NCBI GenBank assembly: GCA_017463985.1
Contig: JAFUEH010000029.1
Location: 1 to 34,802 of the forward strand
Reading direction: 5' to 3'
Length of the DNA: 34,802 nt
From: Eubacterium sp.
GTDB lineage: Bacteria; Bacillota; Clostridia; Oscillospirales; Acutalibacteraceae
The notes below the pieces were generated by a model. That model had not been told where the DNA came from and did no database searches. It saw only the letters and a list, made by a program, of their open reading frames with translations. Position numbers and translations under genes: made by a program. Position 1 is the stretch's first letter. The number at the start of each line of letters is the position of its first letter. This document shows positions 11,407-27,085 of the stretch, one piece after another.

Positions 11407-12453
11407 TTACTCCTTCCAAGGATACTGTTCTTTTAACTGTTCAAATTCCTGATAGGTTTCGGCAAAGTGAAATTCCTGCTGCAGATCCGAAAAGAAGAAA
11501 ATATAGTTCGTCTCCGGATAGTGCAGCACCGCGTCGATCACTGCCTCGCCGGAATTGGTGATCGGTCCGGCCGGCAGCGCCTTGCATTCATACGTATTAT
11601 ACGCGTCGTACGCCTCCTGCGAAATACCGGCAGTGTCGCGCAGCGCCCTGGCGTAAAAGATCGTTACGTCAGACTGCAGCTGCATACCGCTGTTCAGCCG
11701 GTTCATAAAGACAGAGGCGATGTTTTGTGCGCTTTCGTTCGTGAGCGCCTCCTCCTGTACCACACTCGCCAGCGTGATCAGCTCGTAGAGGGTCATGTCA
11801 TGCGCCTCACAAAACTGATCCATTGCTTCGGTGCGCCGGTCCGCAAAGGCACCGAGCATGATGTCCGCGATCTTATGCGCGTCACTGTTCATGGCAAAAT
11901 CGTAAGTGGCCGGGAACAAAAAGCCCTCCAGCTTATACGGCACCAGCGCATTATCCGGAATTTCTTTGATAAAATTATAGTCGTAGCCCTCGGTCGTTTC
12001 GCAAGCAGCTAAAAAGTCCTGCGCAGAGCAGATGCCGTTTTCCTCCAGGCGTGCGGCAATGTCCATACAGTTAAAGCCCTCCGGAATCACCACCTTCACC
12101 ACCTCGTGTGAAATATCGGGGTCTTGCAGCTTCTCAGCGATCGCCTCATAGCTCATATCGGCTGTCAGCGTATATTCACCGCGGACATATTCAAAATCCG
12201 GATAATGGTTAGCCATCCAGTTCGTCCACAGCACATCGCTGAGGACAATGCCGTTATCCGCCAGATCGGCGCCGACGACCTCCTCGTAATTCTGTGAGCC
12301 GATGATGAGCGTATATTCCTTTGTCTCCTGCTTCACGCCGTTAATATCGTTTGTAGCGGCTGTATAGACCAGATAACCGAGCACGCCGAGGATCGCGATC
12401 AACAGCACTGTCAGGACGGCGATCAAGCCCTTATGTGTTTTGCGTTTTGCCAT
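11407..12453 (-). CDS. mltG: Endolytic murein transglycosylase MltG (YceG-like)
   Basis: 348 residues. A basic N-terminus is followed by one membrane helix (about 10-31), and the rest lies outside the cell. YceG motifs are in order: PEGFNCMDIAARL, LEGFLFPATY (about 173-182), LASVVQEEA (about 228-236, containing the catalytic Glu), VFMNRLNSGMQLQSDVT and LPAGPITNSGEAVIDAVLH. The family cuts nascent glycan strands and helps set their length with the elongation machinery. It starts 2 bp after the GNAT stop and its stop is 6 bp before thyA. Placing a wall hydrolase with thyA-folA is probably co-transcription of housekeeping genes and not a shared pathway. Confidence 0.95.
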   Translation of the reverse strand: MAKRKTHKGLIAVLTVLLIAILGVLGYLVYTAATNDINGVKQETKEYTLIIGSQNYEEVVGADLADNGIVLSDVLWTNWMANHYPDFEYVRGEYTLTADMSYEAIAEKLQDPDISHEVVKVVIPEGFNCMDIAARLEENGICSAQDFLAACETTEGYDYNFIKEIPDNALVPYKLEGFLFPATYDFAMNSDAHKIADIMLGAFADRRTEAMDQFCEAHDMTLYELITLASVVQEEALTNESAQNIASVFMNRLNSGMQLQSDVTIFYARALRDTAGISQEAYDAYNTYECKALPAGPITNSGEAVIDAVLHYPETNYIFFFSDLQQEFHFAETYQEFEQLKEQYPWKE

Positions 12454-12455
12454 TT

Positions 12456-12890
12456 TTATAATTCCTTTATCATTCGTTTATGCGCAATGCCTGCGTCCAT
12501 AATGATTGCATCGGCGGCAACATGAAAGCCGCATTTTTCGTAAAACGGAATAGCATGCAGTTGCGCGTCCAGCTGCACTGACGGCGCGCCGTTACGCCTT
12601 GCCTCCTCGCACAGCGCCGCTACCACCGCCGCGCCGGCGCCGGTGCCGCGATACGCCTTCAGCGTAGCGATCCGTCCCAGCTTGACGCCCGTTTCTGTAA
12701 CGATCAGCCTGCCGGTAGCGACGGGAGCACCGTCACGGAAGATCAAGACAAAGCGCGTTTTTTCATCGCTGTCATAGCGGTCGATCTCCTCTTCAAGAGC
12801 AACGCCCTGCTCCTCACAGAATACCTGATAGCGAATAGAAACGGCCGTCTCTAAGGCACTGTCTGCACAGCCGAAAAGCTTGCTGTTCAT
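12456..12890 (-). CDS. GNAT-family N-acetyltransferase
   Basis: 144 residues from the ATG at 12890, which has AAGGAG seven nt upstream; an in-frame ATG further out (12938) lacks such a site and lies upstream of the likely transcript start. GNAT motif A is LGRIATLKAYRGTGAGAAVV (about 81-100), with the acetyl-CoA pyrophosphate loop RGTGAG, and motif B is LDAQLHAIPFYEKCGF (about 115-130). VRYQVF-like SIRYQVFCEEQGV near the N-terminus is typical of the YjcF/ElaA-like group. The acetylated substrate is unknown. It is the first gene of the mltG-thyA-folA operon, read from its own promoter divergent to the P-loop gene. Confidence 0.88.
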   Translation of the reverse strand: MNSKLFGCADSALETAVSIRYQVFCEEQGVALEEEIDRYDSDEKTRFVLIFRDGAPVATGRLIVTETGVKLGRIATLKAYRGTGAGAAVVAALCEEARRNGAPSVQLDAQLHAIPFYEKCGFHVAADAIIMDAGIAHKRMIKEL

Positions 12891-12910
12891 CTCATCACTC
12901 CTTATCCAAC

Positions 12911-12938
12911 ATTCTAACATAAACGCCGAAAAAAGCAA
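12911..12938 (-). promoter_or_regulatory. Promoter of the GNAT-mltG-thyA-folA operon
   Basis: On the minus strand TTGCTT (12933-12938), a 16-bp spacer and TAGAAT (12911-12916). It stands back to back with the plus-strand promoter at 12947-12975. Confidence 0.6.
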
Positions 12939-12946
12939 TACTAATA

Positions 12947-12975
12947 TTGACTAAAGCGGCGTTTTATTTTATACT
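12947..12975 (+). promoter_or_regulatory. Promoter of the P-loop/lipoprotein operon
   Basis: TTGACT (12947-12952), a 17-bp spacer and TATACT (12970-12975). The TTG of the -35 box is in frame with the gene but is not its start. Confidence 0.78.
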
Positions 12976-13006
12976 ATATTCTAATAAGTTAGAGGAAGGT
13001 AACCTT

Positions 13007-13735
13007 ATGCCGTTTTATGACATCGCCGGTTTACGGGTAGAAATCAAAAATAACAAAGGCAGAACGCTACGGCAGTCAAAGGCCTATTTGGCCGACAACC
13101 AAGACCCGACCCTGCCTGCGGATATTGTGATCGACATCACGCCGGAGCGTGTGCAGGCAGCGCGCGAGGAGCATCCGGAGCTGAACTCCGACGATTGGGA
13201 GTATATGCTGACCGGCTCTGATTTTTACGCCCGTCTGCTCGGCTATGACGGTATTTTGCTGCACTCCTCCTGTATCGTCGTGGACGGCGTCGCCTACGCC
13301 TTTTCCGCCGACAGCGGCACCGGCAAATCCACCCATACCCAGCTGTGGCTGAAGCGCTTTGGCGAGCGTGCCTATATGCTCAACGACGACAAGCCGGCAC
13401 TGCGCGATATTGACGGAAAAATATACGCCTGCGGCACCCCTTGGAGCGGCAAGCACGACTACTCCACGCCGGTCATCGTACCGCTCGGCGGCATCTGCTT
13501 TTTAGAACGCAGTGAAACAAATTGGATCAAGCCGGCGGACACCAAGCGCGCTGTTTACAATATATTTGCGCAGACGGTACGTAATCTCGGGCCGAACGCC
13601 ATGAACAAGCTGTTTGATGTGCTGGAAGCAATTTTTGAAAAGGTGCCGTTGTGGGAATTCGGCTGCAACATCTCGCCCGAGGCGGTCGATGTCTCCTACA
13701 ACGCCATGAAGCAAGGCTATGAAGAACAGAAATAA
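13007..13735 (+). CDS. P-loop protein, HPr kinase/PEPCK-like fold
   Basis: 242 residues from ATG 13007, which follows GAGGAAGG. Walker A is FSADSGTGKSTHTQLW (about 101-116), preceded by LLHSSCIVVDGVAYA as in HprK C-terminal and PEP-carboxykinase-like P-loop proteins. NDDKPAL (about 130-136) could supply the Walker B-like acidic pair. It lacks the HprK N-terminal domain and the HprK signature, so it is not the phosphocarrier kinase itself. Similar stand-alone proteins occur in Clostridia with unknown substrate. It overlaps the lipoprotein gene by 17 bp, indicating tight coupling and perhaps joint function. Confidence 0.82.
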   Translation: MPFYDIAGLRVEIKNNKGRTLRQSKAYLADNQDPTLPADIVIDITPERVQAAREEHPELNSDDWEYMLTGSDFYARLLGYDGILLHSSCIVVDGVAYAFSADSGTGKSTHTQLWLKRFGERAYMLNDDKPALRDIDGKIYACGTPWSGKHDYSTPVIVPLGGICFLERSETNWIKPADTKRAVYNIFAQTVRNLGPNAMNKLFDVLEAIFEKVPLWEFGCNISPEAVDVSYNAMKQGYEEQK

Positions 13736-14444
13736 ATACCTCCGTTTTGCTGTATGCCTTTGGCTCTGTCTGCTGCTTGGCGGGTTGATCAGCGCCTGCA
13801 ACGCCGGCGTGATCACGAACGAGCCTTCAACGGAGGCAACGGCAACGCAAGCCGTGACAGATACGGTCCATACAGAAGCCGCCGAGCCGGAGACAGTCTT
13901 TTCCTCAGCGGAAAGCACTTCGCTCACGGAGGCTGACACCACAGCGGAAACGGCTACAGAAACGACCGGTTCAACAACAGCGGCTGCCGGCGAGCACAGC
14001 ACCCGCAGTCCGTCTACCACTGCCGCCAAAACCACTGCACCGACAACAACGGCGACGCCGACAGCGCCAAAGACACAGGAATGTACGCTGACCATCGACT
14101 GTACCGCTGCGCTGGCCAACAAGGATAAGCTGGTCGAAGGTCATGAGAACGTCGTGCCCTCCGACGGCTATTTGCTGCGTAAAACGGCCGTCACGATACA
14201 GAACGGCGATACGGTTTACGACGTGCTCAAGCGCGCCTGCAGCGCGAACGGCATCAGCATCAACGGCACAAAAACCTATATCCGAGGGCTGCAGCAGCTT
14301 GACGAATTTGACTGCGGCACCAACAGCGGCTGGCTGTATTACGTCAACGGTGAGCTGCCGATGACGCCCTGCGGCAAATACGCGGTCAGCTCCGGGGACA
14401 ACATCGTATTTTACTACACAGTGGATTATTCCACCGCCTATTAA
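13719..14444 (+). CDS. Lipoprotein with DUF4430-like domain
   Basis: 241 residues. A signal peptide ends in the lipobox LISAC (Cys27), so the mature protein should be lipidated and surface-anchored. Residues about 30-115 are a low-complexity Thr/Ala/Ser/Glu linker. Residues about 118-241 look like the DUF4430 domain, related to the cobalamin-binding fold of transcobalamin: NGDTVYDVLKRACSANGI, LQQLDEFDCGTNSGWLYYVN and GKYAVSSGDNIVFYY. In this family the domain binds small ligands or sits in surface proteins; cobalamin binding is not shown. The start lies inside the previous gene. A strong terminator follows 17 bp after the stop. Confidence 0.85.
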   Translation: MKNRNKYLRFAVCLWLCLLLGGLISACNAGVITNEPSTEATATQAVTDTVHTEAAEPETVFSSAESTSLTEADTTAETATETTGSTTAAAGEHSTRSPSTTAAKTTAPTTTATPTAPKTQECTLTIDCTAALANKDKLVEGHENVVPSDGYLLRKTAVTIQNGDTVYDVLKRACSANGISINGTKTYIRGLQQLDEFDCGTNSGWLYYVNGELPMTPCGKYAVSSGDNIVFYYTVDYSTAY

Positions 14445-14518: not shown

Positions 14519-15475
14519 TTATTCCTCAAAATCAATTTTCATGACATGGCGCTCCAGTTCCTCGCCCTCTGCGCGCTGACGCGTCGGCTTCGGTGCGTCC
14601 ATAAAGTCCTCCTGCAGCTTCTCATATTCTTGACGGGACAATTTTGCGCGCTCGAGCTTACCGGCGTAATAGCGGTAATTGAAGACCAGCAGCACAATAC
14701 CGCCGACCAGTAGCACAGCGCCGATCACCGTCAGCCATTGCAGCACCGCAGCATAGCAGTCGCGGATCATGCTGTCATAAGATCCGTAAACGCAGAAACG
14801 GAATTTTTCTAACAGGCCAGTCATGCGAACAGCCAGCGGAACAAACAGCAGCAGGTAACCGGCTACGTTCAGTCCCATCCCGATATACGAGAACCGACGG
14901 TGTCTTCCGTCGTTAATCAAATCAATTGCCACCAAACTGATAACCAAACACACGGCGCAGGCGACGATCACATAGAGCGCGGTCATACCGGAGGCAAAGC
15001 GCAACGCACCGACCGTTTTGGTGTCATTGCCCTTCATCCGGTAATTGATATAGCTGACCGCCAGCGAGGCGGCGCTCTGCACCTCCTCGTCCGTCAGTCC
15101 TAAGCTGTTCTGCACGGCATAATCGGCAAGGCAGGAATAGTACATATTATAGAATGTTTTGCTGTCGGAATAATCGGCCGTATAGCCGTAATTAAACATC
15201 CTCGCGATCTCAGAGGCGATCCCCGAAACATTTTCGCTGTTCACGGCGCCCTCAAAGGCAGCCTCCGGCAGTCCGGCGACCGCGGCGGCATCGGCAGCAG
15301 CCTCCTCCATATCGGCAATCAGCTCCGCGCTGTTGCGTTCACAGGCGCTGCGCAGAAAGCTTTCGCTCTTAAAAAAGCCCACGGTCAGCGCACTGACTGC
15401 GATCCCCACCAAGGAAGCCGCCAGCACCAGCGACAGCACGATACACGCCAGTCGATTGAAATAATAACGAAACAT
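14519..15475 (-). CDS. Membrane protein of unknown function, partner of the sortase-like gene
   Basis: 318 residues with ATG 15475 after AGGAGG. Helix 1 (about 9-31) is followed by a 134-residue, Ala-rich, acidic extracytoplasmic region (about 32-165). Three more helices follow (about 166-187, 196-217, 243-267), then a charged cytoplasmic tail of 50 residues. No catalytic motif is seen. It is downstream of the sortase-like gene by 9 bp and shares its operon. The topology, one loop domain outside and a coiled tail inside, would suit a membrane partner or scaffold for the sortase-like protein (inference). The family is not recognised. Confidence 0.82.
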   Translation of the reverse strand: MFRYYFNRLACIVLSLVLAASLVGIAVSALTVGFFKSESFLRSACERNSAELIADMEEAAADAAAVAGLPEAAFEGAVNSENVSGIASEIARMFNYGYTADYSDSKTFYNMYYSCLADYAVQNSLGLTDEEVQSAASLAVSYINYRMKGNDTKTVGALRFASGMTALYVIVACAVCLVISLVAIDLINDGRHRRFSYIGMGLNVAGYLLLFVPLAVRMTGLLEKFRFCVYGSYDSMIRDCYAAVLQWLTVIGAVLLVGGIVLLVFNYRYYAGKLERAKLSRQEYEKLQEDFMDAPKPTRQRAEGEELERHVMKIDFEE

Positions 15476-15484
15476 ATTACCCTC

Positions 15485-16075
15485 CTACGCCGGCTCAGCG
15501 ATACATACGATATACAGGTCCGCATTGCTGCCTACCGCCAGATTTTTGTACGGAAAGGCGACAACCAGTGTATTTTCCTGCAAATAAGAAGCTAAGTTTT
15601 CTTCGGTAACACCGGCGTCAATACGGGTGACAGTGTAAGGATAAGTATCCCGACCGATCACGGTCAGCGTTAAGTCGCTGCCGACCTTCGCACGGTGCAT
15701 CGCCGCCAGCTGGTTCTCAGTATCTGTACCGGTGATCAGCATAGCGCCGCCGTTCCACGGTGCGGTAGAGCCCTCCGCCATGGCCAGCTGTGAACGGTCC
15801 GTCGGCTGATAGCAAACGACCTTATCCGATAACGCGCCGTCCAAGCCGGACAGCGTACCGATCAGCGCGCCGTCAGTCAGCTGCTCGAAGGAGTCATATA
15901 ACGAGGAGCTGTAGCCGGAAAGGTCCGGTGCCGCTGCTGCCGCCGGCGTCAGCTTTGCCTGTGACGCGGTTGCTGCACGGCCGCCAAGCGTCAGGAGCAG
16001 CGCCAGCACTGCCGCCGTCACCACTACCTGAACCAGCACGGAACGTTTGATAAAATTAAAAATGAGTGAACGCAT
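15485..16075 (-). CDS. Sortase-like protein lacking catalytic His, Cys and Arg
   Basis: 196 residues; one membrane helix (about 13-31), then an outside domain. It follows the class D/E sortase pattern: GALIGTLSGL (69-78; sortases have G-x-x-IGTI-x-IP), a central LAMAEGSTAPWNGGAMLITG, VGSDLTLTV (131-139; GDEI-x-V), YPYTVTRI, and NTLVVAFPYKNLAVGSNADLYIV (168-190; TLVTCYPF...RYIV). At the three catalytic places it has Thr117 for His, Ala173 for Cys and Leu187 for Arg, so no transpeptidase activity is expected. It is the first gene of a two-gene operon. The fold assignment is by eye; a structure prediction would decide it. It could act as a binding or regulatory pseudo-enzyme. Confidence 0.75.
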   Translation of the reverse strand: MRSLIFNFIKRSVLVQVVVTAAVLALLLTLGGRAATASQAKLTPAAAAAPDLSGYSSSLYDSFEQLTDGALIGTLSGLDGALSDKVVCYQPTDRSQLAMAEGSTAPWNGGAMLITGTDTENQLAAMHRAKVGSDLTLTVIGRDTYPYTVTRIDAGVTEENLASYLQENTLVVAFPYKNLAVGSNADLYIVCIAEPA

Positions 16076-24928: not shown

Positions 24929-27085
24929 TTACGGATTCAGGCAGACGCCGGAGCTGTTGAACCGATAGGTCTTACTGCCCTGCTTCAGGTTCGCCGTACG
25001 CATAGCGCCGCTGGACTCGAAGTAATACCAGCTGCTGCCGATCTTCTTCCAGCCGGTGACCATGTCGCCGCCGGTGTTGAAATAATACCACTTACCGCTG
25101 AGCTTTTGCCAGCCGGTCAACATCGCACCGGAGGCATTAAAGTAATACCACTTGCTGCCGGATTTTTGCCAGCCCGTGAGCATAGCGCCGGACGAATTGA
25201 ACAGATACCACTTACCGCTGAGCTTCTGCCAGCCGGTCAGCATCACGCCGGAAGCGTTAAAATAATACCACTTGCCGCTGAGCTTTTGCCAGCCCTTCTG
25301 CTTGACGTTATTCTTGTAATAGTACCACTTGCCGTTTTCCTTCTGCCAGCCGTTTTTCGCCACCAGCTTTGGCACAGTGACCGTATAGCTGTCATGACAT
25401 TCGCTGCATTCATATACCATGGAACCGGCGGCAGTGTAGGTAGGCGCGGTTTCGCTCACCTTCACATAACGGTGATCCAGCATCGGCAGTACCGTCACGA
25501 CGGTATCACCGCAGCTGCTGCAGACCTTCGTAATACTGCCCTCCTGCGTACAGGTAGCCACACGCTCCGTCGTTTGATACTGATGCGCCAGCTTCGGCAG
25601 TACGGTCGTCACAGTGCGGCCGCACATTGTACATTTTTCGATACGCTCGCCGGCGGCGGTACACGTTGCCGGCGTTTCGCTATCCGGCACATAGTGATGG
25701 TCAATTTTGGCGGTCGGGGTAATACGGGTGGCGCCGCACAGCGAACACACCTCTGTCACAGCCCCCTCAGCAATACAGGTAGCCGGCGTTTCAGACGCCT
25801 TCACATATTGATGTGCGATCATCGGCAGCACCGTACGCTGCGTATCGCCGCACACCGTACAGGTAAGGGTAATGCTGCCCTCATTCACACAGGTAGGCTC
25901 TGTTTTGCTTTCCGCATAGCAATGCTCACCGAGCGGCAGATGCGATACTAAAATCGTACCGCAATTTTTACAGATGCGCGTGATACTGCCTTGTTCCAGA
26001 CAAGTGGATTCAATACGCTCTTCCTCAAAGTCGTGATCCTTCAGCGGGATCGCCTCCTGTACGACCGTACCGCACTTGGTACAGGTCTTTTCCAGCAGGC
26101 CCTCTTCCGTACAGGTAGCCTCCTGCAGCACGACCTCGTTAAACTCGTGACGGCAGCCCTCAACATGAATCGGCACGGTAACGGAAGCTTTCAGGGAAGC
26201 GGTTACCGTATAGCTGGCCGTCAGCGTGGTATCACCGGCGCTCACGCCCTTGATCTTACCGCCGGACACGGTGGCAATGCTTCTGTCGGCAATGCTCCAG
26301 CTTGGCGAGTCGAGCCGGGCGTCGATATAAATTCTTTCCGGCCAGTGCTCCTTCGTAAACAGGCAGGCATGGATCGTCGGCAACGCAGCCGTTTCGCCCA
26401 CCGCGGTCTCCACCTCGTGCTGCTCTGACGCCAAGGTGATACCGGTAATACTGCTTTTCAGTACCTCAACGGGCACGGCTGTCTCGCTGTTATTCGGTGC
26501 CTGATAGGTGGCATCGACACCGCCCTTGCGGAACTCCTGTACCCAGTAGTCCACGCCGTTCATCACAAAGTGGGCAATGCCGACCGTCGTAAAGGAGGAC
26601 GACAGCATCGAACGGCGGTGTCCCTGATCCTCATACGGATTATTGATCTCCTGCCAGCCCTCAAACACAGAGGCGGCCGAATTATACATGACGGCAATAT
26701 TCTCACCGACAGCGGTGATCTCGTCATACGCTGTCCAGCAGAACGTGCCGTCCGGACGCGTATGGTCGTAATCCACCGCGATCTCCGCCGCGCGCTGCAT
26801 GGCGATACGCTCCAAACTGTAATCATACGCGTAGGGCTGCAGCTTGCCTTTTAAATTCGTTTTTGTTTTGTTGTCCTCATTCCAGTACCAAGCGTCATTG
26901 CCGGCACGGAACTGATTGATCATGTCCAGCATCTTGCGCGCGCCGGTCTGGTCATATTTACCGACCACGTTCACCGTCACGGTATCGCTGTCAGCGCCGA
27001 AGGCAGTGCCGCTCAGAGCCGTGCCTACGGACAGCAGCATCACGACCGACAGTAACAGGCTGATCCATCTTTTCGAGTATTTCAT
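24929..27085 (-). CDS. Secreted CAP protein with Cys/His repeats and wall-binding repeats
   Basis: 718 residues. Signal peptide 1-30; CAP domain about 48-187 (MLDMINQFRAG, DYDHTRPDG, VGENIAV, DQGHRRSML, DYWVQEF); bacterial Ig-like (Big2-type) domain about 212-307 with IKGVSAGDTTLTASY. Seven repeats follow from His313 to about 573, with a 37-38-residue period, each His...Cys...CxxC; the CxxC pairs are 335/338, 372/375, 409/412, 447/450, 485/488, 522/525 and 560/563. The last unit has Tyr550 in place of the first Cys. Residues 579-718 are seven choline-binding-like GWQKLSGKWYYFN repeats. ATG 27085 follows GGGGGA. A surface-attached protein is inferred; the role is unknown. It shares its architecture with the CAP protein at the left edge but not the Cys/His block. 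Confidence 0.93.
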   Translation of the reverse strand: MKYSKRWISLLLSVVMLLSVGTALSGTAFGADSDTVTVNVVGKYDQTGARKMLDMINQFRAGNDAWYWNEDNKTKTNLKGKLQPYAYDYSLERIAMQRAAEIAVDYDHTRPDGTFCWTAYDEITAVGENIAVMYNSAASVFEGWQEINNPYEDQGHRRSMLSSSFTTVGIAHFVMNGVDYWVQEFRKGGVDATYQAPNNSETAVPVEVLKSSITGITLASEQHEVETAVGETAALPTIHACLFTKEHWPERIYIDARLDSPSWSIADRSIATVSGGKIKGVSAGDTTLTASYTVTASLKASVTVPIHVEGCRHEFNEVVLQEATCTEEGLLEKTCTKCGTVVQEAIPLKDHDFEEERIESTCLEQGSITRICKNCGTILVSHLPLGEHCYAESKTEPTCVNEGSITLTCTVCGDTQRTVLPMIAHQYVKASETPATCIAEGAVTEVCSLCGATRITPTAKIDHHYVPDSETPATCTAAGERIEKCTMCGRTVTTVLPKLAHQYQTTERVATCTQEGSITKVCSSCGDTVVTVLPMLDHRYVKVSETAPTYTAAGSMVYECSECHDSYTVTVPKLVAKNGWQKENGKWYYYKNNVKQKGWQKLSGKWYYFNASGVMLTGWQKLSGKWYLFNSSGAMLTGWQKSGSKWYYFNASGAMLTGWQKLSGKWYYFNTGGDMVTGWKKIGSSWYYFESSGAMRTANLKQGSKTYRFNSSGVCLNP
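25367..26149 (-). repeat. Seven zinc-ribbon-like Cys/His protein repeats
   Basis: This segment encodes seven units of about 37-38 residues (first His at 313, 351, 388, 425, 464, 501 and 538). Each has a Cys 11-12 residues after the His, in a TCxxxG context, and a CxxCG ten residues later. Similarity is at protein level; the DNA units are diverged, so the duplication is old. Confidence 0.8.

Follow-up and report, generated by a model that had tools for sequence, protein, structure and literature searches.

A family of apparently non-catalytic sortases with a constant membrane partner across the loci examined in one genus

Sortases are transpeptidases with a His-Cys-Arg site that fix proteins to the cell wall. 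Enzyme folds kept as scaffolds are known in the iRhoms, which are pseudoenzymes. We found no paper on non-catalytic sortases in the open-licence PubMed Central literature; the one match for a degenerate sortase concerned, in the available part of its text, a degenerate sorting motif and not a sortase. The available portion of one report describes Clostridium perfringens SrtD as encoded in one operon with a sorting-signal protein, and states that Cys catalysis in sortases needs His and Arg for efficiency (PMC4498605). Lit, the lipoprotein intramolecular transacylase (PDB 7b0p), uses two outside His residues according to the accessible part of its description (PMC8275575).

The window analysed here, a 34,802-nucleotide stretch of DNA from a gut bacterium, carries on its minus strand (15485..16075) an ORF of 196 amino acids, in which the structure model places an N-terminal membrane helix at residues 3-31 and an outside sortase domain at about residues 49-196. 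The frame is intact, a ribosome-binding site is present and GC3 is similar to that of the neighbouring genes. On its own, the protein gave no sortase match in Pfam or NCBIfam, nor any match to the class D models NF033746 and NF058671. For the window-type family (18 members from 60 genomes of the genus, the window's own copy included), 16/18 members matched sortase models at E<=1, with a best value of 4.3e-8. The sortase fold that had been proposed from the letters alone is borne out by the eight-stranded barrel typical of PF04203, which the window protein possesses, and by homology at the sequence level, hhalign giving 98.5% for the family. Class D models were the best-scoring ones for those intact relatives of the same arrangement that were scanned, and the intact relatives L029, L030 and L037 fall below the NF033746 and NF058671 cut-offs but exceed the cut-off of TIGR01076, the general sortase model.

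At the catalytic positions, the profile alignment reproduces the three residues that the sequence-only reading had picked out by eye: Thr117 at the His site (codon 15725..15727, minus strand), Ala173 at the Cys site (15557..15559, minus strand) and Leu187 at the Arg site, for which a second alignment chooses Asp186 (Asp186-Leu187 codons, 15515..15520, minus strand; all coordinates calculated from the ORF). Across the 18 family members His never occurs at site 117, where N, T, S, K, A, D, E or a gap stands instead, and Arg is absent from sites 186 and 187 in all 18. A survey of homologues at the three sites, suggested earlier as a check, thus gave a divided answer: none has His or Arg, but site 173 is Cys in 13/18 and Ala only in the other 5/18. 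Because none of the 18 has His or Arg, the site as a whole was not lost recently, nor does a sequencing error account for its absence. The Cys-bearing members are also unlikely to be active, since efficient Cys catalysis requires both His and Arg (PMC4498605, in its available portion). We conclude, from fold and sequence comparison, that the window gene encodes a predicted pseudosortase, a membrane-anchored, outward-facing sortase fold incapable of transpeptidation.

The start codon of a second gene lies 9 nt past the end of the pseudosortase ORF, with AGGAGG in front. This partner (14519..15475, minus strand) is a 318-aa membrane protein with a predicted topology of four helices, a GRHR loop and a KIDF tail. 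Among the parts of it that are conserved are the KIDF tail and a loop predicted to lie inside (GRHRK-YIGMG), and these two elements hold its only His residues, 192 and 310, the side following from the predicted topology. Pfam gave no consistent family for the partner: the most shared, LiaI-LiaF-like_TM1, was matched by 4/9 members (best E 0.0059), DUF2776 was matched by one member at 6.8e-6, and Lit was absent from the best 25 of the 39 Pfam families listed for partner members. PF07314 (Lit) matched neither the window partner in Pfam nor anything in the window's genome. An assignment of the partner to Lit by sequence was rejected, the hhalign scores being at decoy level (best, A6 against Lit, 29.0; top decoy, 28.7). 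Intact and degenerate loci have homologous partner families, with hhalign scores of 101, 72 and 140, and reversed decoys of these families reach at most 28.7.

The pair is flanked in the window (11407-14444) by mltG (YceG), a GNAT-like ORF recognized by eye, a weakly ScmC-like ORF below the cut-off and a DUF4430 protein. An mltG-like ORF, again by eye, is also found near the pair in L042-L044, L048 and L049. Farther away (24929-27085), the window encodes a 718-aa protein with a CAP domain, choline-binding repeats and, between them, Cys-containing repeats.

The partner adjoins the pseudosortase in 18/18 window-type loci. Partner-profile matches occur in 86/398 genomes (E<=0.001) and 44/135 genera of the taxonomic family and in 42/60 genomes of the genus; a profile of the window-clade partner, searched at order level, matched 6/394 genomes. 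Directly upstream of 107 distinct partner ORFs, a sortase-like gene is present in 99 (67 with the triad and 32 without, one of these a fragment), a figure that takes in 30 ORFs from loci fetched by their sortase or pseudosortase, where adjacency is favoured. A fairer figure comes from the partner-fetched loci, in which 70/77 partner ORFs follow a sortase-like gene, intact in 61 of the 70; by HMM the other seven have none, and two of them have a very divergent pseudosortase by eye. In loci added later, 31/41 partner-like ORFs have a sortase match upstream: 24/25 in the genus and 4/13 in other families, where many of the 13 are weak matches and 9/13 are without one. Other families of the class likewise have pairs of an intact sortase and a partner (L200, L201, L202 and L204). 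No fusion of the two genes was found among the ORFs of 157 loci. In further genomes of the class, L205, L206, L208 and L215 carry partner-like ORFs of greater length (433-531 aa) with no upstream sortase match; those of L208 and L215 are preceded by an ORF of about 220 aa whose start is signal-like. In L141 (2390-3349), a partner gene with no adjacent sortase match lies a few kb from a second partner that has a pseudosortase. A proline in the membrane helix was considered as a mark of partner linkage (59/67 intact, 22/32 degenerate) and set aside because it also occurs, by the same crude window, in 3/9 controls.

The window's genome itself carries three pairs: that of the window, a second next to ilvD (L004), and a third, on contig C18, that is very divergent. 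The pseudosortase profile of the window family matched only itself in this genome, and the paralogues were revealed by the sortase model and the partner profiles; the sortase part of the C18 pair went unseen by the HMMs used. That pair (65010-70852; pseudosortase L153, 3358-3915, minus strand, with partner L095) lies near a glutamate racemase-like gene, as judged by eye. In L155 (3374-5754) an ilvD-linked pair adjoins genes resembling, by eye, a polysaccharide-type ABC ATPase, a capsule kinase and a phosphatase. When the whole family alignment was used as seed for related loci, no stretch was conserved enough, and a narrower alignment gave 8 loci.

Directly upstream of intact sortases there is often a gene for a secreted protein, in most cases some 190 aa long, ending in a PIKxTG-type or similar motif, a hydrophobic stretch and a basic tail. 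With a loose regular expression, broader than PIKxTG, an upstream sorting-signal ORF was detected in 44/67 intact and 2/32 degenerate loci (Fisher p 7.3e-9, both degenerate matches counted). One of the 44 sits in a locus with <500 bases upstream, and the test on 43/63 intact loci gave p 3.1e-9. The two degenerate matches, in L020 and L022, were judged false: each is a neighbour of 182 aa, the two being similar, which was taken by eye for a putative ribosome-hibernation factor. At the window locus, no sorting-signal neighbour was found upstream. A profile built from 17 substrates gave long matches (>37 bits over 148 or more profile columns) in 39/200 genomes of the taxonomic family; at E<=0.001 it matched 82/200, the matches beyond the 39 being short and <31 bits. 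Among the 60 genomes of the genus, of which 40/60 are at >=90% completeness and <=5% contamination, no long match, and hence no full-length member of this co-operonic family, was found; the 25 matches at E<=0.001, in 20/60 genomes, stay <25 bits, start at the signal peptide and never pass column 109 of 182.

These data bear on the roles proposed in the sequence-only reading, in which the pseudosortase would bind sorting signals or wall polymer as a receptor, or regulate the true sortases of the organism. Retention of the sortase fold would suit such roles, as would the presence of three intact sortases elsewhere in the genome. However, these roles fit poorly with the lack of any long match to the co-operonic substrate family in the 60 genus genomes, and the three intact sortases lie on other contigs, apart from the pair. 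Site 186, moreover, is aromatic in 13/18 family members, and what travels with the pseudosortase is the membrane partner, which the earlier proposal had left out of account. We consider a receptor or regulator of this kind unlikely.

That the protein is non-catalytic, as had been supposed, agrees with the triad being intact in 0/50 genus sequences, which come from fetched loci, form a subset of all genus matches and include the window's own. None of the 50 shows His; two of them, L144 and L153, both spotted by eye, are gapped at that position. The triad is intact in 71/78 partner-linked sortases outside the genus and in 9/9 control sortases not flagged as partner-linked, a small set taken from loci at hand in which L038 lies near a weak, unflagged partner-like match (E 1.2e-4). 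On the tree (98 rows; the fragment L146 was excluded from it and from the 50/78/9 count), loss of the triad needs three changes, and a single origin is not rejected (AU p 0.459). The Cys at site 173 in 13/18 family members would be expected of an enzyme with other chemistry, either a Cys-only activity or a new site built on the Tyr and Asp that other lineages have in place of His and Cys; Tyr stands at the His site in 18/50 genus sequences and in 7/7 non-intact sortases outside the genus, with Asp at the Cys site in 5/7. Yet residues at the three sites are highly variable within the genus, and in the window copy Thr and Ala occupy the His and Cys sites; we regard such chemistry as unlikely.

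Purifying selection acts on the pseudosortases of relatives. Nei-Gojobori dN/dS for the three most similar pairs is 0.038 (L014/L015), 0.149 (L008/L012) and 0.169 (L135/L142, from another genus), in keeping with the earlier suggestion that the fold is kept by selection; the other 12 pairs, with dS of at least 1.39 or undefined and so less reliable, give 0.125-0.270 where defined. The best-conserved stretches of the family include the start of the anchor helix (mean column identity 0.62; K10 in 18/18, P16 in 17/18), the SxEPWNxG motif (0.63) and the Cys-site strand (0.65), compared with 0.31 in the stalk. The motif region, located by the family alignment at residues 101-113 just before the His site (15737..15775, minus strand), has S103, P106 and W107 in 94% and G110 in 100% of the 18 members; the window protein has Ala in place of Glu105. 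Its changes at conserved family positions are P16Q, E105A, D133S, Y140I, C173A and Y191C, and all dN/dS pairs are between relatives, so the window copy, whose nearest relative is 36% identical, may be drifting. Decay of the pseudosortase into a functionless remnant, to which that divergence and the restriction of the dN/dS estimates to relatives lend some colour, is very improbable given the intact frame, the ribosome-binding sites, dN/dS well <1 in relatives and three pairs retained in one genome.

The reading that we favour, and hold to be probable, is that the pseudosortase and its partner form a membrane complex of two proteins, in which the pseudosortase, having lost triad and substrate and taken a scaffold or gating role, is the extracytoplasmic subunit. 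Counting against this reading are the absence of gene fusions among the 157 loci, the departures of the window's own copy from its family and the partner ORFs that have no sortase upstream. The ancestor of both genes would have been the three-gene set seen outside the genus, comprising a secreted sorting-signal substrate, an active class D-like sortase and the membrane partner; in the genus, catalytic residues and substrate gene would have gone while sortase fold and partner were retained. As triad and substrate are gone and fold and partner kept, the sortase domain would still do a job for its partner, and this would most likely be the positioning or gating of the partner's outside domain. 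In the simplest account, the domain either had this job already or gained it. The former active-site region may have been converted: an EPW motif is conserved just ahead of the His site, and site 186 is mostly aromatic. The conserved helix start, SxEPWNxG motif, Cys-site strand and partner loop and tail would fit contact along the membrane helix and the former active site. The relatives examined in the genus, non-catalytic yet still beside one membrane protein, suggest that an old enzyme is now a structural or binding partner. What is real is a family of non-catalytic sortases that keeps one membrane partner throughout the genus loci examined; its function, including co-transcription, a physical complex and the scaffold or gating role, is what we infer.

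More tentatively, an intact operon of substrate, class D-like sortase and Lit-like membrane protein may have become non-catalytic sortase/membrane complexes in which the fold is a receptor or gate for the partner's membrane activity, possibly acyl or lipid chemistry. If so, the intact version would link that activity to surface anchoring.

That triad and substrate are absent together should surprise a specialist. A fold under selection without its catalytic site, in several paralogous copies, points to a second use of the sortase fold, the intact three-gene arrangement suggests that class D-like sortases have a membrane partner that has been overlooked, and together they raise the question of what sortases do besides cutting. 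Compared with known systems, the pseudosortase shares its beta-barrel fold with class D sortases such as C. perfringens SrtD (PDB 4d70), but lacks the His, Cys and Arg and the substrate gene, and is tied to a membrane partner that the available portion of the SrtD report does not mention (PMC4498605). The partner differs from Lit, as described in the accessible part of its source, in that His192 and His310 are on the predicted inside and two extracytoplasmic catalytic His are missing. The iRhoms differ from the pseudosortase in fold and organisms, but they too have kept an enzyme fold, lost catalysis and bind a membrane partner, as the pseudosortase presumably does.
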